47,034 bases of DNA from a virus. The translations under genes and the position numbers were made by a program. The stretch lies in IMG/VR virus record IMGVR_UViG_3300009418_000002, positions 1 to 47,034 of that record, one strand, 5' to 3'. Shown one piece after another: positions 13,314 to 47,034 of the stretch. The number at the start of each line of letters is the position of its first letter. Position 1 is the stretch's first letter. The notes below the pieces were generated by a model. The model made no database searches and was not told where the DNA came from. It worked only from the letters and a program-made list of their open reading frames with translations.

Positions 13314-13568
13314 TCACTGTGTCAGTCTCCGCGAGATCCACATGCCAAGTATCGCACCGAGACTTGCTCCGACGCCATACGACGCAGCGAACTCCCACGA
13401 CTGATACCCGCTCGATGTGCCAGCGTTTAGCCACCAGACAAAACTAATCAGGAACGCGGTGCATCCGGCATAACCATACTGCCCTCGGCTAATGAACACG
13501 GTCGATGCGCTGACGGGTGCGACTTGCAGACAGCCACGGAGTACCATCTCCAGCACGTCGCCCATCAT
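13314..13568 (-). CDS. small two-helix membrane protein
   Basis: This 84-residue protein starts at the first of two adjacent ATGs, in an ATGA overlap with the methyltransferase gene; AAGGTG lies just upstream, and the second ATG at 13565 has better spacing. Two hydrophobic stretches are visible: GYAGCTAFLISFVWWLNAG and YGVGASLGAILGMWISRRL. Position before the terminase genes gives no clear role. It could be an accessory holin-like or superinfection protein, but that is speculation. Confidence 0.6.
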   Translation of the reverse strand: MMGDVLEMVLRGCLQVAPVSASTVFISRGQYGYAGCTAFLISFVWWLNAGTSSGYQSWEFAASYGVGASLGAILGMWISRRLTQ

Positions 13569-14800
13569 GTCACCTTGGTCGCGGTCTTCCCCGTGAACGC
13601 TTCCCATCGATCAATCGTGACCTGGCAATAGGACGGTTCGATTTCGATGCCGTAGCAATGACGGCTTAGTTGTTCGGCTGCAATAATCGTTGATCCAGAA
13701 CCTAAAAACCCATCGAACACTATGTCATCAGACACACAACTGTTGCGGATAGCTCGACTCATTAAATCATTTGGTTTTGTAGTCGGATGATCGGGACTGG
13801 TTGGTGGACGTGGTATTTCCCACACCGTCGTTTGTGTGCGGTCGTTTATAAAATAATGCGATTTGCCTGACTTCCATCCGTACCATAACGATTCGTGCTG
13901 CCAGTGGTAATCCTGACGACTTAAAACCATTCTGTCTTTAACCCACACAATCATTTGTCGAATTTCGTGTATTGTTTCCAACGCATTCACAACCTGTCGA
14001 TCTCCACCTGACGCACAAACATAAAAACTTCCACCAGACGACAATGGCCATGCTGCAATTGCGCTTTTAAGAAATAAAGCAAACGACTCCGGTGACAGAG
14101 AATCGTTTGGCACAACCAATCCATCTGTGCGTCGTCTGCGCTTTTTTAATTGTTCTATGCTGGCATCATCTTGGTATCCGACGTTATAAGGTGGATCAGT
14201 AAATATCATTTGAGCTTTGTTTCCATTCATTACCAGCGCCACGTCATCGGCGTTCGTGCAGTCACCGCACAGCAACCGGTGGTCGCCAAGCGTAAACAGA
14301 TCACCCGTCTTAATATCCGTAGCGCGTTTCGCTGGCACATCATCAGGATCGGTAAGACCACCATCAGGCTCAGGAGTCTCCAATAGGTCAGCGAGTTCGT
14401 CCTCGTAAAAGAACGGCGACAAGTCCAGCCCATCCTCCGCATCCTTCAGCAACTGGCCAACATCCCACTCAGCTAATTCACCAGTGCGGTTGTCATACAA
14501 CGCCAGGTCGCGCTTCTGAGCCTCTGACAGCCCCGTACGGCGCACCGCGACAAGCTCTGACCCCTTAGCCTCAACCACCTTCAGGTCGGTGATACCAGCC
14601 TCGCCAGCGGCTTCTATGGTCGCGTTCCCTGCCAGCACTTCGTTGTTCTCATCAATGACAATCGAGCGACCGGTGCCGACCTTGTGTAGTGCCTCGACAA
14701 TCATGCCGACATTTCGTGGCGTGTGCTTGCGTCGGTTGTTCGGGTCAGGAACTAAGTCCTTGATATGAGTAAGCGGCTTTGCTCTTTTTTTAGGTGTCAC
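13565..14800 (-). CDS. ParB-like domain fused to DNA (amino) methyltransferase
   Basis: This 411-residue protein starts with GTG. Residues 10-110 form a ParB/Srx-type domain ('IKDLVPDPNNRRKHT', 'VIDENNEVLAGNATIEAA', 'LSEAQKRDLALYDNR'). Residues about 165-405 are a beta-class amino-methyltransferase: 'LLCGDC', catalytic TDPPYNVGYQ (DPPY at 202-205), then the S-adenosylmethionine loop DGFLGSGSTIIAAE near 365-375. It is expected to methylate adenine or N4-cytosine in phage DNA. The fusion is known in phages. Its place just before terminase suggests marking of DNA for packaging or protection from host restriction. Confidence 0.92.
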   Translation of the reverse strand: MTPKKRAKPLTHIKDLVPDPNNRRKHTPRNVGMIVEALHKVGTGRSIVIDENNEVLAGNATIEAAGEAGITDLKVVEAKGSELVAVRRTGLSEAQKRDLALYDNRTGELAEWDVGQLLKDAEDGLDLSPFFYEDELADLLETPEPDGGLTDPDDVPAKRATDIKTGDLFTLGDHRLLCGDCTNADDVALVMNGNKAQMIFTDPPYNVGYQDDASIEQLKKRRRRTDGLVVPNDSLSPESFALFLKSAIAAWPLSSGGSFYVCASGGDRQVVNALETIHEIRQMIVWVKDRMVLSRQDYHWQHESLWYGWKSGKSHYFINDRTQTTVWEIPRPPTSPDHPTTKPNDLMSRAIRNSCVSDDIVFDGFLGSGSTIIAAEQLSRHCYGIEIEPSYCQVTIDRWEAFTGKTATKVT

Positions 14801-15408: not shown

Positions 15409-16641
15409 CTATCCCCTTTTCATATTCATTTCATAGACCTTCTGAACAGCTTGCCCCAGTACGGCTCCCACCCGCACAGCATCCGTGTCGCTCATGGATG
15501 CAATGATATTGCCACATGACCGATGTAACAAGATTCCCGCACGAAATGACAGGGCTAACACCTGGTTAAGCTCGGCGTCTGTAAGTCCAGTAAGACGAAA
15601 GTGAACTGGATACCCTTCCATTAAGCCAGGCGTTCCATTCGCCTCAGCATTGAAGGCTTCGCGTAGAACATGACCTCGTTCCCACATTCGTTCACTAATC
15701 GACTCCGTGCGATATCGTGTGATGACTTCCTTGGCGGCTGATAGTCCAAGCAACGACCCGCCAAACGTGCTACTGATCAGTTGAGCTTCTTCCATGACAT
15801 CTCGCGTCCCACAGATAGCGGCAATCGGGACACCGTTGCCAAGAGCTTTCCCAAAGCACGCAATGTCAGGAATCGTGTCGCTCTTGCACCAGAGTTGTTG
15901 ACTGCCACCGAGCGCATGACGGAAACCGAAAATCATTTCGTCGAAGATTAACAGTGCCCCATGCTTGTCAGCGAGTCGTCGAGCTTCGGTGTAGAACCGT
16001 CGTTGTGAATGCTGCGTGATATCCAGTGAGTCGGCAACAGGAAAACGATACGGCTCGATCACAATCGCTGCCACCGCATTAGGTAAGGGGTCATCGAGTG
16101 AGTCCAATACTCTTGCAAGGTCGGCGTGGTCGTTATCACGGAACGTCGTGATGTGATCGTTGACCTTGCTGTAGTATTCTGTCGCGTTCTTGGGATCGGC
16201 ATAGCGATGTGGAGCTTGACACCATTCATGCCAGCCATGATACGAATGTTGAGCCACTACCACTGTGCTTTGACCTGTAACGGCACGCGCAATCTGCACG
16301 GCTCCCTGCATGGCTTCGCTGCCAGTCATGACGAACCGCGTCATCTCTGCACACGGAATAACTTCTGACAACCTGGTGGCGACTTCATTCTCAAGGCGAT
16401 GGGGCAATGACAGAATTGACCCCATCGTCAGGGCATCACTCACGGCCTTCGTGACTCCCACATCCCCATAGCCCAGTGAAATCGCGCCAAGTCCTGCGAC
16501 TAAATCAATCACCTTGGACTCGTCAGAACACACGACACGACACCCTGACCCCGACTCGGCATAGCAAGGATAGACGTCGGTTGGCCCAACGGCACCAAAG
16601 GCTTTCGACCGTGTTTGCGAATCGCCTGGTGTGTGCAACAT
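15409..16641 (-). CDS. PLP aminotransferase of the HemL/class III type
   Basis: This 410-residue protein is a pyridoxal-phosphate enzyme of the glutamate-1-semialdehyde aminomutase group: 'VTGSEAMQGAVQIARAVTGQSTVVVAQHSYHGWHEW', 'AAIVIEPYR', 'GALLIFDEMIFGFRHALGG', and the PLP lysine in ACFGKALGNGVPIAAICG. In this cassette it is more likely an aminotransferase for a sugar intermediate than a tetrapyrrole enzyme. It is often paired with SpsF-like cytidylyltransferases in surface-sugar loci. It starts directly after the TAG of 16642-17337, with GGGGCG upstream. Confidence 0.85.
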   Translation of the reverse strand: MLHTPGDSQTRSKAFGAVGPTDVYPCYAESGSGCRVVCSDESKVIDLVAGLGAISLGYGDVGVTKAVSDALTMGSILSLPHRLENEVATRLSEVIPCAEMTRFVMTGSEAMQGAVQIARAVTGQSTVVVAQHSYHGWHEWCQAPHRYADPKNATEYYSKVNDHITTFRDNDHADLARVLDSLDDPLPNAVAAIVIEPYRFPVADSLDITQHSQRRFYTEARRLADKHGALLIFDEMIFGFRHALGGSQQLWCKSDTIPDIACFGKALGNGVPIAAICGTRDVMEEAQLISSTFGGSLLGLSAAKEVITRYRTESISERMWERGHVLREAFNAEANGTPGLMEGYPVHFRLTGLTDAELNQVLALSFRAGILLHRSCGNIIASMSDTDAVRVGAVLGQAVQKVYEMNMKRG

Positions 16642-17337
16642 CTACGACGCCCCTTTCAACATCCCGCAGAGGCGTGCCCCCTCAAGGACGTTCTGTGCCG
16701 AGTAGTCGTGAGGCACGAGATATCCACACACCTGTCGAACTCGGTCAAGGTCTTTTTGTCGATCCACGCTGAGCTTCAGATAGCCATAGTCGTGTTCGGA
16801 TAATACGTCATGAGTTTTATAGTTCGAGCGAATCCACGGCGTAACGTGTTCACGGTCATGGCGAGCATTCGCACGTTGAGCCGCCTCATGTAAGACTTTG
16901 GCTGACATGACTTCCGTATCAAACCCATCCGGCCATCGCGCTTGACGGCCGACATTAGACACATAGTCATAGGTCGATTTCAGGTATTCGTCCAAAACGT
17001 ATGACGACACATCTGAGGCCAGCAACGGACAATCACCAGTGATACGCATCACCACATCGGCCTTCATAAATCGTGCAGCATGATCCATGCGTCCCAACAC
17101 ATCCCACTCCGACCCACGATAGACACAGATACCACTCGATGGACGCTCAAATACTGCCGCCAACCGATCATCATGTCCGTTGACACTGGTAACAAGACAG
17201 ATTCCGGTGAGTCCTTCTATGCGAGAGACACGAGTTATGACGTGCTGAATCATGGACTGACCAGCAATTTGAGAGAGCGATTTTCCCGGCAATCGCTTCG
17301 ACCCCATACGAGCCTGAATCAGCGCGACAACTTTCAA
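16642..17337 (-). CDS. SpsF/NeuA-like cytidylyltransferase
   Basis: This 231-residue protein begins KVVALIQARMGSKRLPGKSLSQIAGQSMIQHVITR, the nucleotide-binding signature of CMP-sugar synthetases and SpsF. It also has 'IRITGDCPLLASDV'-type sequence (MRITGDCPLLASDVSSYVLDEY) for substrate and metal. It would activate a nonulosonic acid or similar sugar with CTP. The start is a TTG in a TTGA overlap with the upstream gene; no internal ATG would keep the signature. The neighbours are the synthase and acetyltransferases. Confidence 0.85.
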   Translation of the reverse strand: MKVVALIQARMGSKRLPGKSLSQIAGQSMIQHVITRVSRIEGLTGICLVTSVNGHDDRLAAVFERPSSGICVYRGSEWDVLGRMDHAARFMKADVVMRITGDCPLLASDVSSYVLDEYLKSTYDYVSNVGRQARWPDGFDTEVMSAKVLHEAAQRANARHDREHVTPWIRSNYKTHDVLSEHDYGYLKLSVDRQKDLDRVRQVCGYLVPHDYSAQNVLEGARLCGMLKGAS

Positions 17338-18365
17338 TGGACCACTCTCTCGACAGCACGTGCCTGACAGGAGTGAATCGGTTGAAGAAAATCCTCACCC
17401 CCAAAGCCGCGACGGAAGAACTCGATATTGGATTCCTTTTCGGTGACGCTGCCTCCCTGATGACCCATCTCGTAATACTTCACACCGAGTTCCTTTAAGC
17501 GTTTGATGATGGCCCACTGAATTGGATGTGACACGTTCGGTGCAAGACTCGCAGCACTGGCATAGTAGGCATAGTCTTTCCATCGCAACACATACGCAAA
17601 TCCAAGAACGCTCTCGCCTTCTCTTGCCACAAACCACGACGCATGGTCAGCCAGCACGAAGCTATCCTGACAGACCCATGAATCGGACGGGCGCGTCACC
17701 CGACCGGAGGCGCGGTGGTGTAAGTCTTGGCACAGTTCCCTGGTGTGATCGTGCCGTTCCTCAGTGACCGTGATTGCCGAGTCTCGAATGATGTGCCTGT
17801 AGCTTTTTCTCACGTCAGCCCATAACCTAGTCAGGGGGATAGATAGATCGATAATACGTGTCCTGATGGAGTCTTCCTGCCAGCCGTTGTCTAATACCAA
17901 TGCTGAATACATCGGTGGATTGCACCACATTCCTTTAAGCATGTCATCAGGAACAAAGTGTGGATGAATCGGCATTATGCGAAAACCGACACGACTATCA
18001 GCGTGACTCACTACCGACTCCAACACTTCACACATGATCGGCAACACGACATCCATCGCAAACCGTTCGTCTGGATGATCCACCAACGCTTCATGCAACA
18101 GCAATGGGGCAGGGGCAGGAAGGTCGCCAAGCCCAAACAGGTTAAGCTCTGGATGATAGGTGAGAAGTTGTGCGGCCACGACTCTCCCGTCTACCGTCAC
18201 GCCCCATGAATGATCGACGAGTGTCGGGTTCCGTGCTATCTCATAATCCCGCCAGAGCGGTCGATTCCAGAACCAGAGGGCGTCTTTTTTGATGACAAGC
18301 TCGTCAACTTGTTCTGTGATCTTTACACCTGACACCGGAACCACTTGGATTCGTGTGTCTTTCAT
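17334..18365 (-). CDS. FemAB/GNAT-like acyltransferase
   Basis: This protein has 343 residues from the ATG at 18365 (ATGA overlap with 18362-18889). The N-terminal half has 'NRPLWRDYEIARNPTLVDHSWGVTVDGRVVAAQLL', as in GNAT-type domains, and the second half has 'ADVRKSYRHIIRDS', 'SWFVAREGESVLGFAYVL', 'YYASAASLAP' and 'KRLKELGVKYYEMGHQGG', as in FemAB-type acyltransferases. It is likely to add an acyl or aminoacyl group to an amino sugar. The substrate is unknown. Confidence 0.75.
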   Translation of the reverse strand: MKDTRIQVVPVSGVKITEQVDELVIKKDALWFWNRPLWRDYEIARNPTLVDHSWGVTVDGRVVAAQLLTYHPELNLFGLGDLPAPAPLLLHEALVDHPDERFAMDVVLPIMCEVLESVVSHADSRVGFRIMPIHPHFVPDDMLKGMWCNPPMYSALVLDNGWQEDSIRTRIIDLSIPLTRLWADVRKSYRHIIRDSAITVTEERHDHTRELCQDLHHRASGRVTRPSDSWVCQDSFVLADHASWFVAREGESVLGFAYVLRWKDYAYYASAASLAPNVSHPIQWAIIKRLKELGVKYYEMGHQGGSVTEKESNIEFFRRGFGGEDFLQPIHSCQARAVERVVH

Positions 18366-18889
18366 AACCGATAGTCCAGTGTCCAGATGTCTCCGCGTTG
18401 ACGACTCACCCAAAAGCCGCACGACCGAAACGCGCACAGCGATGGCTCGTTGTGTCGCTTGACGACTGCTTCAAGAGTTGGTACGCCGAGATCCTTGGCC
18501 TTGCGACAGACGGCACGAAGCATTGGTGTGGCATACCCACATCCTCGGTGAATCGGCGCGACAGTAATCGACACCCGACCATGACGCAGCAGATGGCGAT
18601 TCGGTGAATGCGAGTCATCCTGCACAGAAGGTCGCAAGTCGAGGGCAACGGTTCCAAGATCATCCCACTGAGTATGAGCAATAAACGACGGCGTGAGCGG
18701 GTCTTCCATCATGCTGTGGAGCCACTCCAGATGGTCATCGAACTCAATCGGATCTGAGGAAAGCGAGTTTCGTCGTGTCTGTGGATCGTTGGCCCATCGA
18801 TACAGCAGGGGTGCGTCATCTGCCGTGACCTTTCTCAGCCCAACCACGGGATCTGAACCCTGGTGATCCCTGGTATTACCTGGTCTCAT
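18362..18889 (-). CDS. GNAT N-acetyltransferase (PseH-like)
   Basis: This 175-residue GNAT protein has 'GLRKVTADDAPLLYRWANDPQTRRNSLSSDPIEFDDHLEWL', 'VSITVAPIHRGCGYATPMLRAVCRKA' with the acetyl-CoA loop (RGCGYA), and 'LEAVVKRHNEPSLCAFRSCGF'. The order and the 'W.ND......S...I....H..WL' start are those of PseH and related amino-sugar N-acetyltransferases. It is overlapped on both sides by ATGA. It probably acetylates a 4-amino sugar before the synthase step. Confidence 0.85.
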   Translation of the reverse strand: MRPGNTRDHQGSDPVVGLRKVTADDAPLLYRWANDPQTRRNSLSSDPIEFDDHLEWLHSMMEDPLTPSFIAHTQWDDLGTVALDLRPSVQDDSHSPNRHLLRHGRVSITVAPIHRGCGYATPMLRAVCRKAKDLGVPTLEAVVKRHNEPSLCAFRSCGFWVSRQRGDIWTLDYRL

Positions 18890-19734
18890 ACTCCGACGCG
18901 AAACTGCGCCATCTCCGCTTCTTCGTCCACCTGTTGCTTGTCAGAAGTTCCCATCGCCAGTTCAGCGACCTCCACGTTCAGGACATAGCTCTGTAGCTGG
19001 TCAGGAGTCATGGCGTGTGCATAGTCTGGATTCTTCGGGTCGGTGTCAGGCACTCTGAAATGTGCCTCAAGAATCTCAGCACCCGCACAGACCGCAAGTG
19101 CGCCAGAGGTCACGTAGTTGGGAGCCGTATGATCTGAGAATCCACTAAACGCCAAGGCTTCACGCTTGTTGTCGCCCTTCGACGGAGCCAGGAACGAGCG
19201 ACGCAATACCTTCAAATTTAGCGACCCGTAAGAAGCCGGATACGCACTGACGCAATGCAACAGCTTGAGTTCGTCGGCGGTATAACTGAACGCGAAGTCC
19301 AGATCATTGATACTGGTCATGCCTGTGCTGACGATCATGGGCTTCATACATGCAGACATTGCGTCCCGCAACTCTGCATCCTGGCACTCAAATGACGAAA
19401 TCTTAAACATCGAGACATGCGGGGCGATGACCTCGACATCCTCTGGCAAATAGACGGTGCAAAGATAATCGACCCCTCGTTGCTTGGCGATAAGAGCAAG
19501 TTGTTCATGCCACTCGGCTGGCCATTGAAGGAGATTCTTATAGTGGGCCGCGAACGGAGTCTTCGTCGCGTGGCGGCGTTTCGCCATTTTCCTGGCTGAG
19601 CTTGTCCATTGAAACTTCACCGCACTTGCGCCAACAGAAGCCGCGACCGTGATGAGATGTTCCATCTTTGAAAGGGACGCATCCCCGCAGGATCCAGCTT
19701 CAGCGATGAGGGTCGTTTTGATATTGTTGGGCAT
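18886..19734 (-). CDS. NeuB/PseI-family nonulosonate synthase
   Basis: This 282-residue TIM-barrel protein has 'LIAEAGSCGDASLSKMEHLITVAASVGASAVKFQ', 'CTVYLPEDVEVIAP', 'FKISSFECQDAELRDAM', 'MIVSTGMTSINDLDFAF', 'LLHCVSAYPASYGSLNL', 'GFSDHTAPNYVTSGALAVCAGAEILEAHFRVP'. These are the NeuB/PseI/LegI marks, including the metal and phosphoenolpyruvate residues. It condenses phosphoenolpyruvate with an amino sugar. The usual C-terminal SAF (antifreeze-like) domain of about 60 residues is absent. It overlaps the Gfo/Idh/MocA gene by about 35 bases. Confidence 0.92.
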   Translation of the reverse strand: MPNNIKTTLIAEAGSCGDASLSKMEHLITVAASVGASAVKFQWTSSARKMAKRRHATKTPFAAHYKNLLQWPAEWHEQLALIAKQRGVDYLCTVYLPEDVEVIAPHVSMFKISSFECQDAELRDAMSACMKPMIVSTGMTSINDLDFAFSYTADELKLLHCVSAYPASYGSLNLKVLRRSFLAPSKGDNKREALAFSGFSDHTAPNYVTSGALAVCAGAEILEAHFRVPDTDPKNPDYAHAMTPDQLQSYVLNVEVAELAMGTSDKQQVDEEAEMAQFRVGV

Positions 19735-20563
19735 CGTGAATCATCTCCACGACAAGCGCACCATCTGTGATAGTGGCTGCCGTTGTTGAAGGTTTCCGAA
19801 GTGTCAGAGCTTGCATGAAGTCCTTGAGTTCGTCTTTATACATCGGTGCAATCGCTGACGGTGGATGTCGCAAATTATAATTAGTCTTCGTCTGGTCGTC
19901 CCATGCGACAGTCAGGGTTCGACATTCCTCTCGTGGATGGCTGACATATTTCAACTCACAATCAATTTCCAAGTCTTCTTTCTTTTTGCGTGGCGCGGTA
20001 AGACCAATCCATGCCGAGGTCGGTTCCACCTGTGCGAAGTTGACGCGAGTCGCCCCAAAGAAGTGGCAAGCAAGATCAAGTTCATGACTGGCTTCATAAA
20101 TGACATCCCCATACGTCGAAGCGAATCCCGGCCAGAGACTTCGACACGAATAGCATGTCAGCTTGACATGGGTCGCTCTGGTTCCTTTTTTAAGCGTGGC
20201 ACACATCTCGCTCATGGCACGAATTATCGTGCGATTAAACCGCCAGCAGTAGCCGACCTGCGTGATACGTCCCACGCTCATCTCTACCAGGGAGGTCGCC
20301 TCGTCAAGCGATGAACATAACGGCTTCTCGATAAAGACTCCCGCCTCGGTCTGTTCAAGTGCATCTTTTGCGATGTCGTAGTGGGTTGAGAATGGTGTGC
20401 AGATCAGAATCCCATCAGGCTGACGAGACAATGCGTCCTCAAGTGGAGGCGAATCTGAGACTCGTGGGTCAACAATTTCGATGTCATCTTGGACACCGAG
20501 AGCGAGGGCGTTCCGATGATGACGCTTGCCAATGGAACCGAATCCAATAATGAGCAGTCGCAT
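19700..20563 (-). CDS. Gfo/Idh/MocA-family sugar oxidoreductase
   Basis: This 287-residue protein begins RLLIIGFGSIGKRHHRNALALG, the NAD(P)-binding Rossmann loop, followed by 'ILICTPFSTHYDIAKDAL' and 'VFIEKPLCSSLDEA' (EKP motif), and 'YEASHELDLACHFFG' with the substrate-domain histidine. It would oxidise or reduce a sugar hydroxyl in the cassette. It is shorter than usual (330 or more). AGGGA precedes the ATG, which follows the TGA of 20564-21562 directly. Confidence 0.88.
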   Translation of the reverse strand: MRLLIIGFGSIGKRHHRNALALGVQDDIEIVDPRVSDSPPLEDALSRQPDGILICTPFSTHYDIAKDALEQTEAGVFIEKPLCSSLDEATSLVEMSVGRITQVGYCWRFNRTIIRAMSEMCATLKKGTRATHVKLTCYSCRSLWPGFASTYGDVIYEASHELDLACHFFGATRVNFAQVEPTSAWIGLTAPRKKKEDLEIDCELKYVSHPREECRTLTVAWDDQTKTNYNLRHPPSAIAPMYKDELKDFMQALTLRKPSTTAATITDGALVVEMIHDAQQYQNDPHR

Positions 20564-21562
20564 TCAATATCCCTGCTCGTCTGCTGATGCGATAAGTGAC
20601 CGTAGCTGGGCGTCATTCATGAGCCTATCCGGTGCGTTGCTGGTGTATCGGTAGGTGGAAGGCACGGCTTTTCCTGCCCAGGCATCCTGCGTCCACGTTG
20701 GGCCAGATGGCGGGACAATGTAGAGGTCACACGACGAATCATAGAGTGTGCGGGTTACTTCCTCAGTCGAGAGCAAGACCTCATGCACCTTCTCGCCACC
20801 AGCCCGAATTCCAATAACAGACGCATTGAGTTCTCTGAAGTTCCCTGTCTGCCTAACGACTGTTCGCATCAAGTCATGCACGGATGCCGACTTGAGTGAC
20901 GGCACGAAGATTTCGCCACCCACTTGACGATCTATCGCTTTCCAGACCAGTTCAACGGCCGCCGATAACGGCATCCAGAACCGTGTCATCTCGGTGTCGG
21001 TAATCTGTAGCCGCTCACCTCGCTGTTGCTGCTTGCGCCAGAGTTGCAAGACCGACCCGCGTGAGCCAAGCACGTTGCCGTAGCGCACGACAGACGCACG
21101 GAACGTCTCAGGGTGATAGGCATTGGAGCCAATCACGAAACCCTCAGCACTGGCCTTGGTTTTGCCATATTGGTTCATCGCCTCAACCGCTTTATCTGAA
21201 CTGATGAAGACCAACTGCTTGACCCCACAGGCAAGACAGGCATTGACGACGTTCATTGTGCCGATGACATTCGTCTTAATCAGTTCGCCGCCATCGGTGT
21301 GGGCGTTGACCCGTTTCAATGCCGCCGCATGAACCACCACGTCCGTGCCATAGAACGCCTGACACAGCCGATGATAGTCACGCACGTCCCCCAGGTAGGC
21401 GCGGAACTGGTGATAGGTTTTGAACTGGTCGCCAATCTGGTCAGCTTTCACCTCATCGCGTGACAAGGAAATCAGTCGCGTCACTTCTGGATGATGCTCT
21501 TGACAGTGCCCGATGAAGGCTCGACCAAAACTGCCCGTCCCGCCTGTGACCAGTATCTTCAT
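20564..21562 (-). CDS. PseB/CapD-like UDP-sugar 4,6-dehydratase
   Basis: This protein has 332 residues from the ATG at 21562, which overlaps the preceding small gene by ATGA; a longer frame is an unlikely start. The NAD-binding MKILVTGGTGSFGRAFI, 'DVVVHAAALKRVNAHTDGGELIKTNVIGTMNVV', the active site 'VFISSDKAVEAMNQYGKTK' and 'RYGNVLGSRGSVLQLW' match short-chain dehydrogenase type dehydratases such as PseB (UDP-GlcNAc inverting dehydratase). It makes the 4-keto-6-deoxy intermediate that starts pseudaminic or legionaminic-type pathways. Confidence 0.9.
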   Translation of the reverse strand: MKILVTGGTGSFGRAFIGHCQEHHPEVTRLISLSRDEVKADQIGDQFKTYHQFRAYLGDVRDYHRLCQAFYGTDVVVHAAALKRVNAHTDGGELIKTNVIGTMNVVNACLACGVKQLVFISSDKAVEAMNQYGKTKASAEGFVIGSNAYHPETFRASVVRYGNVLGSRGSVLQLWRKQQQRGERLQITDTEMTRFWMPLSAAVELVWKAIDRQVGGEIFVPSLKSASVHDLMRTVVRQTGNFRELNASVIGIRAGGEKVHEVLLSTEEVTRTLYDSSCDLYIVPPSGPTWTQDAWAGKAVPSTYRYTSNAPDRLMNDAQLRSLIASADEQGY

Positions 21563-21783
21563 GTGCCTCGGCTCATTCGGTTGATGTACCGATGATCGAC
21601 ATTGATCCGACACTTCACTCGCATCCGTTCGTGGGCCGGAAGCGACCAGAACCACATCTTCTCCTCGATGACATATCGTAAACGAGGATAGATTCTGAGA
21701 GCCATCCCACACACGCCAAGACCAGTCAACCAGATGAGATGGTTACACCACGAACGAGCGGTCGCAAAATGGGCAGGTGACAT
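21559..21783 (-). CDS. small protein with one membrane segment
   Basis: This 74-residue protein overlaps its upstream neighbour by about 40 bases and the dehydratase gene by ATGA. Residues 14-29 (CNHLIWLTGLGVCGMALRIY) form one hydrophobic stretch, and the C-terminal half is basic (KCRINVDHRYINR). No family is recognised. Its tight coupling to the sugar cassette suggests a link, which is inference. Confidence 0.5.
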   Translation of the reverse strand: MSPAHFATARSWCNHLIWLTGLGVCGMALRIYPRLRYVIEEKMWFWSLPAHERMRVKCRINVDHRYINRMSRGT

Positions 21784-22297
21784 CAGAGGTTTTCCCTTCC
21801 GTGGTTGTTCCAGGAGTGAGTTCTTCTGGTTGGTTCTTTTTGTGCTGGTGTAGATGCTCTCGTAAGTCTTCTCGGCTTAATGCTTGATCGTCACAGTACG
21901 CCAGCAACTTGTTCCGGTCGTCCACGTCTTTCACCTTCATGGCTTCCTGGTGGTGTGACCATGACAGCTTCGTCGCAAACGGACGGTCATTCTGTGGGTA
22001 GGCTTTAGAGATACGCACCGCCTGAGAGAGCGTCCAGTACGACTTCTGTGTGAGTTCGACAGCCTGTGTGTAGGATTCACCGTAGTCGCCTCGACCTTCT
22101 CCGTATAACAGCAGGTCGCCAATGGCCCACATCGTGGCGTTCGCCATGAGGTAGCAGTTTTGTAGCCCGCTACAAAACTCCTCAATCGTGGGTTCACCTG
22201 TAATAACGGCTCCGGTAGCGGTCAGATTGATTCCACCTCCCAATTCAATCGACTGGTCTGGAGAGGCGATCAGAATAGTCTCGGCCTTTCTTGTCAT
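21743..22297 (-). CDS. hypothetical HTH-like protein with C-terminal CxxC
   Basis: This protein has 184 residues from the ATG at 22297, with GAGGA about nine bases upstream; a TTG at 22318 would add seven residues. The middle part 'MWAIGDLLLYGEGRGDYGESYTQAVELTQKSYWTLSQAVRISKAYPQNDR' resembles DUF3102/ParB-tail type proteins that combine helix-turn-helix segments. The last residues TCPFCDRSFVV form a half zinc knuckle. A DNA-binding role is likely but the family is not sure. Confidence 0.55.
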   Translation of the reverse strand: MTRKAETILIASPDQSIELGGGINLTATGAVITGEPTIEEFCSGLQNCYLMANATMWAIGDLLLYGEGRGDYGESYTQAVELTQKSYWTLSQAVRISKAYPQNDRPFATKLSWSHHQEAMKVKDVDDRNKLLAYCDDQALSREDLREHLHQHKKNQPEELTPGTTTEGKTSDVTCPFCDRSFVV

Positions 22298-22314
22298 GTA
22301 GTCTGTTCCTCGGC

Positions 22315-22626
22315 TCAAAGAAGTGGATGGCTGAAGACCCGTCGAGCCATACGGATGTTCAGCACCAACGCATTCGCCTCGTCAACGGTTCGCACGATGA
22401 CCACGGGTGTGCCGCGCCATGACTGATGCCACGACCGTTGCAATTCATTCAGCTTGTTATTGCCGACCTTGACTTCGACCGGCACCGTCCACCCATCGAC
22501 ACCAAGTATGAGGTCAGGCACCCCACCGCCAAGCGTGGCAGTACTGAAGACGCTCACACTAGGATGCCGACGAAACGCTTCCACGATGGCACCATGATTC
22601 CGGTCAACCTTGGCGAATCTCGTCAT
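22315..22626 (-). CDS. VRR-NUC-like nuclease
   Basis: This 103-residue protein has the short phage VRR-NUC/PD-(D/E)XK layout: 'VDRNHGAIVEAFRRHPSVSVFSTATLGGGVPDLIL', then 'GWTVPVEVKVGNNKLNELQRSWHQSW', and 'VVIVRTVDEA'. The Asp of PDLI and the Glu-x-Lys of VEVK are the expected catalytic residues. It probably trims branched or broken DNA. It overlaps the HNH gene by four bases, giving a small nuclease pair. Confidence 0.8.
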   Translation of the reverse strand: MTRFAKVDRNHGAIVEAFRRHPSVSVFSTATLGGGVPDLILGVDGWTVPVEVKVGNNKLNELQRSWHQSWRGTPVVIVRTVDEANALVLNIRMARRVFSHPLL

Positions 22627-23695: not shown

Positions 23696-24238
23696 CTATC
23701 CCTCCTTGGTGAGCGCATCAGAGATGGTGCGCCCAAATAATGTTCCCTGAATAACACCAACTTCAACGGGAAGATTCATTGGACAAACGCTTGACAGTCT
23801 CGTTATTTCCCATTTGCGCTTGTCGCACAAGGGATGATTGTCCTGTCGATTACGAGTGTTGTTATTCCATGGCTTGCCTTTGATCGTGCCGACCAGACAC
23901 CAACCAGAGGCATTTAAGGTAATTCCAGGTTCACTGGCAAGTGTGTAAGTAATCAAACGGTGATAGCCCATAGACTTAGCGGCTTTCCATGCGGCTCCAT
24001 ACAGTTTCGATGGCGCATTCTTAGTCCCATCGGTGCAGCATCTCGTAACCTCCAAGGTTAGTCCATCATCAGAGGCACGAGTCACGGGTCGTCCAACCAT
24101 AATCACGCCGACAACCTTAATGCCATCATTAACAGCGATGCCCCACTTCCACCCCTGTGGAGGCACATGGTGTCGATGATGGGTCTGAACAAACCGACAG
24201 GCATCCTTGTAGGTTAGAGGCTGGAGAAAGAGAGTCAC
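23696..24238 (-). CDS. XF1762/Mom-like GNAT-fold protein
   Basis: This 180-residue protein starts with GTG, with GGAGGG just upstream. The motif run 'YKDACRFVQTHHRHHVPPQGWKWGIAV', 'VVGVIMVGRPVTRASDDGLTLEVTRCCTDGTKNAPSKLYGAAWKAAKSMGYHRLITYTLASEPGITLNASGW' is the XF1762-type phage family, which resembles the Mu Mom DNA-modification protein. Mom changes adenine in DNA; whether XF1762 proteins do so is unsettled. The gene lies between the initiator and nuclease genes. Confidence 0.85.
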   Translation of the reverse strand: MTLFLQPLTYKDACRFVQTHHRHHVPPQGWKWGIAVNDGIKVVGVIMVGRPVTRASDDGLTLEVTRCCTDGTKNAPSKLYGAAWKAAKSMGYHRLITYTLASEPGITLNASGWCLVGTIKGKPWNNNTRNRQDNHPLCDKRKWEITRLSSVCPMNLPVEVGVIQGTLFGRTISDALTKEG

Positions 24239-32965: not shown

Positions 32966-33874
32966 TCATGTATGGCAATAGCCACTGCATTCGTTGTCAA
33001 ACAAATCCATCTGGTCGGTGTCGTCGTATGCGTCTTCGATTGGCACACCTGACTGATGCAGATACGGGTCACCACGCAGCAAAGCAATTCCCTTCGTGGC
33101 CATGACACGCTGGTCTTTCTCGGTAGCACTCCCGTCATCGATACGGGCTTTTGTGGCAAGGTATTCATCCCTCGTAATCTTTGGAATCTCCCGCAAGCTG
33201 CGGTCAAAGACAACCGCTTGGGCAAATTCTTCCGGTCTATGCTTCCGCATCTCGGCAAAATACCGTGACGAATGAAAGGGGCATCCAATGCAACTGCTTT
33301 TCACGGGTTCTCGCCCAATCACCTCTGTCACATACCGCTTGCAATCCTGCCTGTTGAAGCCAATTTCAATAAGGGGCCATCGTATGGTTTCCCAATGTTC
33401 GGTCGATGGCTTCATTCGACTGGCTTCGTCGGTAGAGATTCCAATCCATGTTTCGACATGATGTTTCCATCGTTGGTGAGGTTTATATCCGAGCAAACGC
33501 CGGACCTCTTTGACAATCGGTTGAATCTTGTATTCAGACGTACATTGCCGCCGCACGAATCCTTGTGAGCCGTCTTGGTTTTTAATATGAAGGGGCATCA
33601 TCGATGCGCCACGGGGAGAACGAATCGATCCGGCTGTTACTGTTCTGACCTCCACACCGTGTTCCTTTGCCCACACCTTCATATCTGACAAATGACGCAT
33701 CACGGCCGGTGGTTCCCATTGGGTGTCAGCGAAGATGGCAACGTCAGGTTTTTCAATGCTTGGAAATTCGTCACGACACGCAGCAATGAGAAGCGCCGTA
33801 GATTGCACCCCTGCACCAAAAGACAGCGTTCGATAATCGGGCGTTCTTTGATTGAGTTGCTGTGTTTTTGACAC
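32966..33874 (-). CDS. PAPS reductase/PP-loop-like protein
   Basis: This 302-residue protein has the PP-loop 'YRTLSFGAGVQSTALLIAACRDE' (SFGxGxxS at about 18-25), then 'AIFADTQWEP', 'TEHWETIRWPLIEIGF' and 'SSCIGCPFHSSRYFAEMRKHRPEEF' with the CxxC pair used by some PAPS-reductase-like and DndC-type enzymes. Such phage proteins bind ATP and may form sulfur-containing or adenylated groups. The substrate is not clear; the sulfur-related role is inference. Confidence 0.8.
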   Translation of the reverse strand: MSKTQQLNQRTPDYRTLSFGAGVQSTALLIAACRDEFPSIEKPDVAIFADTQWEPPAVMRHLSDMKVWAKEHGVEVRTVTAGSIRSPRGASMMPLHIKNQDGSQGFVRRQCTSEYKIQPIVKEVRRLLGYKPHQRWKHHVETWIGISTDEASRMKPSTEHWETIRWPLIEIGFNRQDCKRYVTEVIGREPVKSSCIGCPFHSSRYFAEMRKHRPEEFAQAVVFDRSLREIPKITRDEYLATKARIDDGSATEKDQRVMATKGIALLRGDPYLHQSGVPIEDAYDDTDQMDLFDNECSGYCHT

Positions 33875-46590: not shown

Positions 46591-47004
46591 TTATGTCGCG
46601 GCAGTCGCCCGTGCCACATCACTCGCTGACTGAATCGTCACCGGAGCATCGAGGAGGCTTCCCACTGACCCGCCCTGCGGCTGATACGAATCAATCACGC
46701 CAATTGCTGAGAAGCGCGGATTGATTGCCGTCGAGCAGATGGCCTGGGGTCGCCACTCATAACAGGCCGTCGTTCCCACCAGGCTGAACAGCGTCGCGTC
46801 AACATTGGCAGCGGTGTAGTCTTGGTGAAAATTCACGTCAAGACTCCAGGTTTTGAGACCGCCCTTATTGATACGGGTGTCGTCACCCATCGCGGTTTCA
46901 TCCTGTACCTCACTCCCGTAGTTGAACGTCAACGATTCAACGTGGTCGCTCAGGTCTACGCCATTCACCTCGAATAGCGCGTTCTTGTAAATGATTGTTG
47001 CCAT
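46591..47004 (-). CDS. tail-tube-like protein, copy 2
   Basis: This 137-residue paralogue of 491-892 shares MATxIYK, the GVDLS/GYDLS turn and DETAMGDDTRINKGGLK. The middle has 'VNFHQDYTAANVDATLFSLVGTTACYEWRPQ'. The start is an ATG with GAGGAG and lies in the terminal overlap. One copy is probably the main tube protein, and the other a variant, tail terminator or tail-end protein. Confidence 0.7.
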   Translation of the reverse strand: MATIIYKNALFEVNGVDLSDHVESLTFNYGSEVQDETAMGDDTRINKGGLKTWSLDVNFHQDYTAANVDATLFSLVGTTACYEWRPQAICSTAINPRFSAIGVIDSYQPQGGSVGSLLDAPVTIQSASDVARATAAT

Positions 47005-47034
47005 TTGCCTATACTCCTCTTGGTTGTTATTGAA
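46912..47034. repeat. terminal direct repeat, right copy (circular overlap)
   Basis: Identical to bases 1-123 (see that entry). It contains the first 31 codons of the tail-tube-like gene 46591-47004 and its ribosome site. Confidence 0.95.

Follow-up and report, generated by a model that had tools for sequence, protein, structure and literature searches.

In bacteria, sialic-acid-like sugars decorate the flagella and the cell surface. A seven-gene cassette that probably makes an activated sugar of this kind was analysed in the uncultured virus record IMGVR_UViG_3300009418_000002 (the window, that is the whole stretch of 47,034 bases), and the closest described systems are bacterial nonulosonate pathways and a prophage gene pair. 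The pseudaminic pathway (PseB-C-H-G-I-F) shares with the cassette the superfamilies of the dehydratase, N-acetyltransferase, synthase and cytidine monophosphate (CMP) transferase; the cassette differs in having no PseC (DegT), PseG or SAF domain, in its SpsF-type transferase and in its extra Gfo, FemAB and HemL genes. The legionaminic sps pathway of Bacillus subtilis uses, like the cassette, an SpsE/SpsF-type synthase and cytidylyltransferase on uridine diphosphate (UDP) sugar precursors and requires SpsC, SpsD and SpsG as well (PMC7439481), whereas the cassette has no SpsC/PseC-type DegT aminotransferase and no SpsG/PseG-type hydrolase. Alteration of host nonulosonates by phages is already known: the prophage genes EpaA/EpaB of Acinetobacter baumannii change a host nonulosonate when the pair is added with no glycosyltransferase alongside, and EpaA carries the CTP_transf_3 family domain of the cassette SpsF, fused to an aldo-keto reductase (PMC12053666). 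EpaAB, however, is a two-gene system of integrated prophages which only epimerises host-made pseudaminic acid, while the present cassette has seven genes including the backbone-forming PseB and NeuB. No matching phage nonulosonate cassette with HemL/SpsF was found in the open-access literature searched, and neither there nor in the annotated phage collection did the searches show a phage pathway, nearly complete and deeply conserved, that includes HemL and FemAB.

We lean towards the reading that this phage operon functions in making a nonulosonic-acid-like sugar in CMP-activated form, which host transferases would place on the host surface.

Composition of the seven-gene cassette

The phage identity of the window was evident from its terminase, portal, major head protein and tape measure genes, and the exact repeat at both ends (Table 1) shows the genome, about 46.9 kb long, to be apparently complete. 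The seven open reading frames (ORFs) are all intact and lie on the minus strand at 15409-21562, overlapping or abutting, with spacings between successive genes of 0, -35, -4, -76, -4 and 0 nt. The value of -76 becomes -4 if FemAB starts at its likely ATG at 18365; the open frame reaches back to a GTG at 18437. For PseB, the likely start is the ATG at 21562 (MKILVTGGTGSFG), which agrees with the cassette end given in a preliminary description of this DNA; the ORF itself opens further upstream, at a GTG at 21712. The G+C content of the cassette is 53%, compared to 52-53% for the rest of the genome, and a promoter and terminator scan gave results at chance level only. The preliminary description had reported a seven-gene overlapping cassette in a phage, and the ORFs, their spacing, the domain searches and the phage hallmark genes bear this out. 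The hidden Markov model searches which it proposed for each family supported all seven, FemAB being the weakest.

Table 1. Coordinates of the cassette genes and associated features in the window
Feature	Coordinates	Strand	Support and remarks
PseB-type UDP-GlcNAc 4,6-dehydratase	20564..21562	-	PF02719 (Polysacc_synt_2) 6e-75
Gfo/Idh/MocA dehydrogenase	19700..20563	-	PF01408 (GFO_IDH_MocA) 1e-12
NeuB-family synthase, 282 aa	18886..19734	-	PF03102 (NeuB) 3e-42; without C-terminal SAF
PseH-like GNAT acetyltransferase	18362..18889	-	PF13302 (Acetyltransf_3) 5e-15
FemAB-like transferase	17334..18365	-	TIGR04421 1e-13; predicted fold
SpsF-like CMP-sugar cytidylyltransferase	16642..17337	-	PF02348 (CTP_transf_3) 6e-25; TTG start
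HemL-like class III aminotransferase	15409..16641	-	PF00202 (Aminotran_3) 4e-40, 138 bits
Terminal direct repeat	1-123 = 46912-47034		exact, 123 bp
LmbU-family protein, possible regulator	21743..22318	-	NF038070 1e-14, below cut-off; upstream of cassette

The conserved motifs of the enzymes were compared across phage copies. The S-D-K...Y...K motif of PseB was invariant in 10 copies, the EKP and SHExDL motifs of Gfo in 6, the residues E12, K40, K111, E116, H202, E223, H225 and D237 of NeuB in 8, and the predicted pyridoxal phosphate (PLP) lysine K265 of the HemL-like protein in 8. From family knowledge, we take the D-K-Y of PseB, the Lys/His/Glu set of NeuB, the EKP of Gfo and K265 of HemL to be catalytic. 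The NeuB domain and the catalytic Lys/Glu/His set by which NeuB-type synthases are recognised are both present, as are the Aminotran_3 domain and PLP lysine of a class III aminotransferase. The nearest PDB entry to PseB was 2gn4, a UDP-GlcNAc C6 dehydratase, and SpsF matched 6oew at 5e-25. The PDB matches of the HemL-like protein included sugar-acting class III enzymes, namely C-6' aminotransferases and NeoN; its structure model had a pLDDT (predicted local distance difference test) score of 69 and was left out of the fold search.

The FemAB-like protein was weak in Pfam (Acetyltransf_6 3e-4, just under the cut-off), and its structure was modelled with a pLDDT of 80. The best Foldseek matches were Sbb17/Sba18, followed by FemX (E about 1e-12), and the model displays the tandem GNAT fold of the FemX type. 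Sbb17/Sba18 and FemX are aminoacyl-tRNA-dependent, and two of the matched structures were solved with streptothrisamine, an amino-sugar antibiotic precursor. The model is closest to aminoacyl-tRNA-dependent amino-sugar ligases, and FemAB probably tailors the sugar.

Missing steps and relation to canonical pathways

The complete genome gave no match, even at E<=1, for PseG (TIGR03590), DegT-type PseC (PF01041), UDP-GlcNAc 2-epimerase (Epimerase_2, PF02350) or a SAF domain. The absence of PseG and of the usual PseC-type aminotransferase, remarked on in the preliminary description, therefore holds for the complete genome. None of the seven genes reached the curated cut-off of a pseudaminic or legionaminic equivalog model. 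PseB scored 287.6 bits (1e-85) with TIGR03589, the PseB inverting dehydratase model, compared to a cut-off of 407.75, and the PseH-like GNAT scored 32.3 bits with TIGR03585 (PseH), compared to 93.1. NeuB gave 113.9 bits with TIGR03586 (PseI), where 340.25 are needed, and has no SAF domain, so that it does not classify as PseI; SpsF, with 19.4 bits of the 205.7 needed for TIGR03584, does not classify as PseF. The score with TIGR04180 (LegB) was 45.7 compared to 475 bits, and the hydrolysing 2-epimerase (LegG) has no PF02350 counterpart. By these membership tests the cassette belongs to neither the canonical pseudaminic nor the canonical legionaminic pathway.

Since no equivalog cut-off was reached and HemL-like and FemAB-like enzymes have been added, the cassette probably yields something other than plain pseudaminic or legionaminic acid. 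The earlier suggestion that the product may be new is strengthened by this reasoning, the product itself being a prediction. A housekeeping HemL identity was ruled out, as the protein scored 165.8 compared to 527.3 bits with TIGR00713 and falls outside the housekeeping clade in the tree. Ten whole viral records of the non-fusion type lacked DegT and eleven records lacked PseG, which makes HemL the candidate aminase in the non-fusion records, where it probably replaces PseC. A GT-B-like ORF was considered as a substitute for PseG; it recurs in one viral group and is not in the window.

Occurrence in other viruses and in bacteria

The seven-gene order was the same in the viral loci L004-L006, with 43-89% protein identity, and in L011, L013/L014 (with the fragment L012), L015 and L016, with about 25-48% identity. 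Because the same order recurs in five further diverged phage lineages, chance was excluded. In L105 all seven kinds of gene occur in a different order, and the L107 cassette holds an aldo-keto reductase. Searching with the HemL alignment yielded 80 loci. Outside the window group, the HemL-selected viral loci (n=70, including near-duplicates, so that the counts are not independent) held PseB in 58, SpsF in 58, NeuB in 50, Gfo in 39, the PseH-like GNAT in 25 and FemAB in 12, and PseB, HemL and NeuB occurred together in 47 of the 70. SpsF-HemL fusions, linking these two steps, were found at 20 loci; DegT was present in 17 of these, compared to 3 non-fusion loci. Among 50,697 phage records searched, none had a FemAB relative or matched NeuB over 80% of its length, and SpsF occurred in only one marine Kyanoviridae contig. 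With the recurrence in viral contigs, what had been a single oddity becomes a widespread, testable trait of uncultured phages, and the cassettes are suggestive of viruses evolving their own activated surface sugars. In L005 (8502-10543), HemL and its neighbouring gene contain internal duplications, which are possibly assembly errors.

The recurrence also bears on whether the genes are non-functional or mere passengers taken from a host. Phage genomes are mosaic, and other segments of the window are replaced in L006; but the intact frames, the conserved motifs, the order kept across diverged phages, the G+C content equal to that of the genome and the grouping of the HemL copies in a well supported clade, all viral within the sample, make this explanation extremely improbable. 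Recent capture from a known host was unsupported, the best bacterial NeuB being about 30-36% identical among the matches listed (574 sampled) and the G+C content uniform; cellular sequences closer than these may exist.

In several bacterial genomes, SpsF and HemL lie side by side with NeuB, mostly with DegT too. A FemAB-only search of 398 genomes gave six matches, of which the two best adjoin NeuB. At one of the six (L195) the FemAB match lies beside a cluster of PseB, DegT, an aldo/keto reductase, SpsF, HemL, PseG/H and NeuB, with two Maf-type proteins, FliD and flagellins; at another (L194) the neighbours are PseG, NeuB, DegT, Maf, flagellins and a PIG-L deacetylase. As both clusters adjoin Maf and flagellin genes, the unusual parts of the cassette (SpsF with HemL, and FemAB) are tied, on the evidence of gene neighbourhood, to predicted flagellin nonulosonate glycosylation. 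The L195 island resembles the phage cassette in having SpsF and HemL with PseB and NeuB, the FemAB homologue lying about 1.7 kb away; it differs in keeping DegT and PseG, in its Maf transferases and flagellins, and in its low similarity to the phage proteins. On balance we are inclined to regard the phage operon as adapted from the kind of cluster by which bacteria make the glycans of flagellin or of the cell surface. The preliminary description did not mention that the cassette is conserved across many groups of phages, nor its counterpart in bacterial islands for flagellin glycosylation; taken together, HemL, FemAB and SpsF suggest a branch of nonulosonate chemistry, as yet uncharacterised, which occurs in these islands too. 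PIG-L-deacetylase-like ORFs, recognised by how their sequences begin and by the homologue in L194, were seen near nonulosonate cassettes at 16 loci (L108, L110, L112, L126 and others).

The bacterial clusters, holding HemL besides DegT, would also fit a cassette which only tailors a host-made nonulosonate by oxidation, amination, acylation and CMP activation, the host PseC and PseG supplying the missing steps. Oxidation, transamination and acylation are an established route from a sugar hydroxyl to an acylamino group, EpaA/EpaB provide a precedent, and PseC and PseG are absent. Most cassettes nevertheless keep PseB and NeuB, which make the backbone and would be needless for pure tailoring, so that this explanation appears doubtful, though it deserves serious consideration.

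The contigs tested (L013, L016, L105, L107, L113 and L177) carry phage hallmark genes close to the cassette. Cassettes of the L107/L113 type lie just after the major head protein among structural genes, and those of the L177 type next to terminase and portal genes, while the cassette of the window adjoins the small and large terminase subunit genes (TerS/TerL). Such a late gene position fits virion assembly, and the same pathway could serve a sugar that decorates the phage's own capsid or tail proteins, shielding them or altering adsorption. Gene position alone is weak evidence, however, and no known glycosyltransferase domain, and hence no protein glycosyltransferase, was recognised among the window ORFs scanned, the short ORFs being only partly scanned; decoration of the virion is considered unlikely, though it comes next in probability after the host surface and is a serious rival.

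The surroundings of the cassettes also include genes acting on DNA. The cassettes of L011, L013/L014, L015 and L016 lie near ParB-like/methyltransferase and terminase-small-subunit genes, the cassette of the window adjoins ParB/DNA-methyltransferase genes, in a region where relatives have genes for 7-deazaguanine. A TET-associated glycosyltransferase (TAGT) follows SpsF by about 0.4 kb in L105 (L105:13454-14386, PF20691, 2e-47), and a weak Mom-like protein is encoded at 23696-24238 of the window (PF25680, 4.5e-4, below cut-off). Use of the sugar or its parts in hypermodification of phage DNA against restriction is still very unlikely: TAGT was not found in the window and, among the viral loci searched, only in L105 and weakly in L165, the counterparts in bacteria are found beside genes for Maf and flagellin, and we know of no DNA modification by a CMP-nonulosonate.

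Proposed pathway, selection and neighbouring genes

In the favoured host-surface reading, PseB would convert host UDP-GlcNAc to a 4-keto-6-deoxy UDP-sugar, which the HemL-like enzyme would aminate in the place of PseC, no other aminotransferase of the sugar type having been found in the genome. The PseH-like GNAT would acylate the amine, and a host or phage activity standing in for PseG would release UDP. The SAF-less NeuB would then condense the free sugar with phosphoenolpyruvate, and SpsF would yield the CMP-sugar. Gfo may contribute a further oxidation and FemAB an aminoacyl or acyl transfer to an amino group. Late in infection, host transferases would attach the sugar to a surface structure of the host, where it may alter the receptors for other phages or for the released progeny. 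Two points favour the host surface as the target: no transferase was recognised among the ORFs scanned, and EpaA/EpaB show that sugar enzymes of phages can act through transferases of the host. A more specific version, in which many phages would make a new class of aminated and possibly aminoacylated nonulosonic acids de novo, with HemL replacing PseC and FemAB adding an amino acid from tRNA, as a phage-specific label of either the virion or the surface of the infected host, is offered only as a tentative and rather unlikely proposal.

Several points weigh against the proposed pathway. A PseG-like step was not found, and the equivalog scores fall short throughout. The bacterial clusters and the phage fusion type retain DegT alongside HemL, so that HemL may have a different role in them. 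That the host supplies transferases and precursors is an assumption, and some unidentified phage ORFs could include a glycosyltransferase. Integrase and resolvase domains (PF00589, PF00239) had no match in the window genome, so that lysogenic conversion of the EpaAB kind is unsupported.

In the phylogenetic tree, the cassette HemL lies outside housekeeping HemL, GabT and ArgD, and the window copy falls in an all-viral set of 11 rows with support of 100/99, the bacterial rows of this tree having been chosen by NeuB similarity. Between the window and L006, the ratio of nonsynonymous to synonymous substitution rates (dN/dS) of SpsF was 0.08, compared to 0.04 for TerL, indicating purifying selection on SpsF; in the other cassette genes the proportion of nonsynonymous differences (pN) was well below that of synonymous differences (pS). 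In the same comparison, SpsF and the N-terminus of HemL are 88-89% identical and TerL 94%, while the block from PseB to mid-FemAB and residues 121-228 of HemL (37% identity) are strongly diverged. The diverged HemL segment covers the region aligned with what is presumably the lid of glutamate-1-semialdehyde (GSA) aminomutase. Swapping of allele blocks that may set product specificity is a possible explanation, but the genome is mosaic elsewhere too.

The LmbU-family gene lies upstream of the cassette in L004-L006 as well. At 13565-14800 of the window, a ParB-like N-terminus is fused to a DNA methyltransferase; the ParB-like part of L006 has no methyltransferase domain. As read from the sequences, genes like QueD, QueE and FolE lie between the methyltransferase/ParB-like gene and TerS in L005/L006 (13-16 kb) and L015 (14-18 kb, with a QueC-like gene as well), and the window has none. 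The nearest terminases to that of the window show about 25-31% identity. A PAPS-reductase-like protein, an auxiliary metabolic gene product, is encoded at 32966-33874 (phrog_424, 1e-37).

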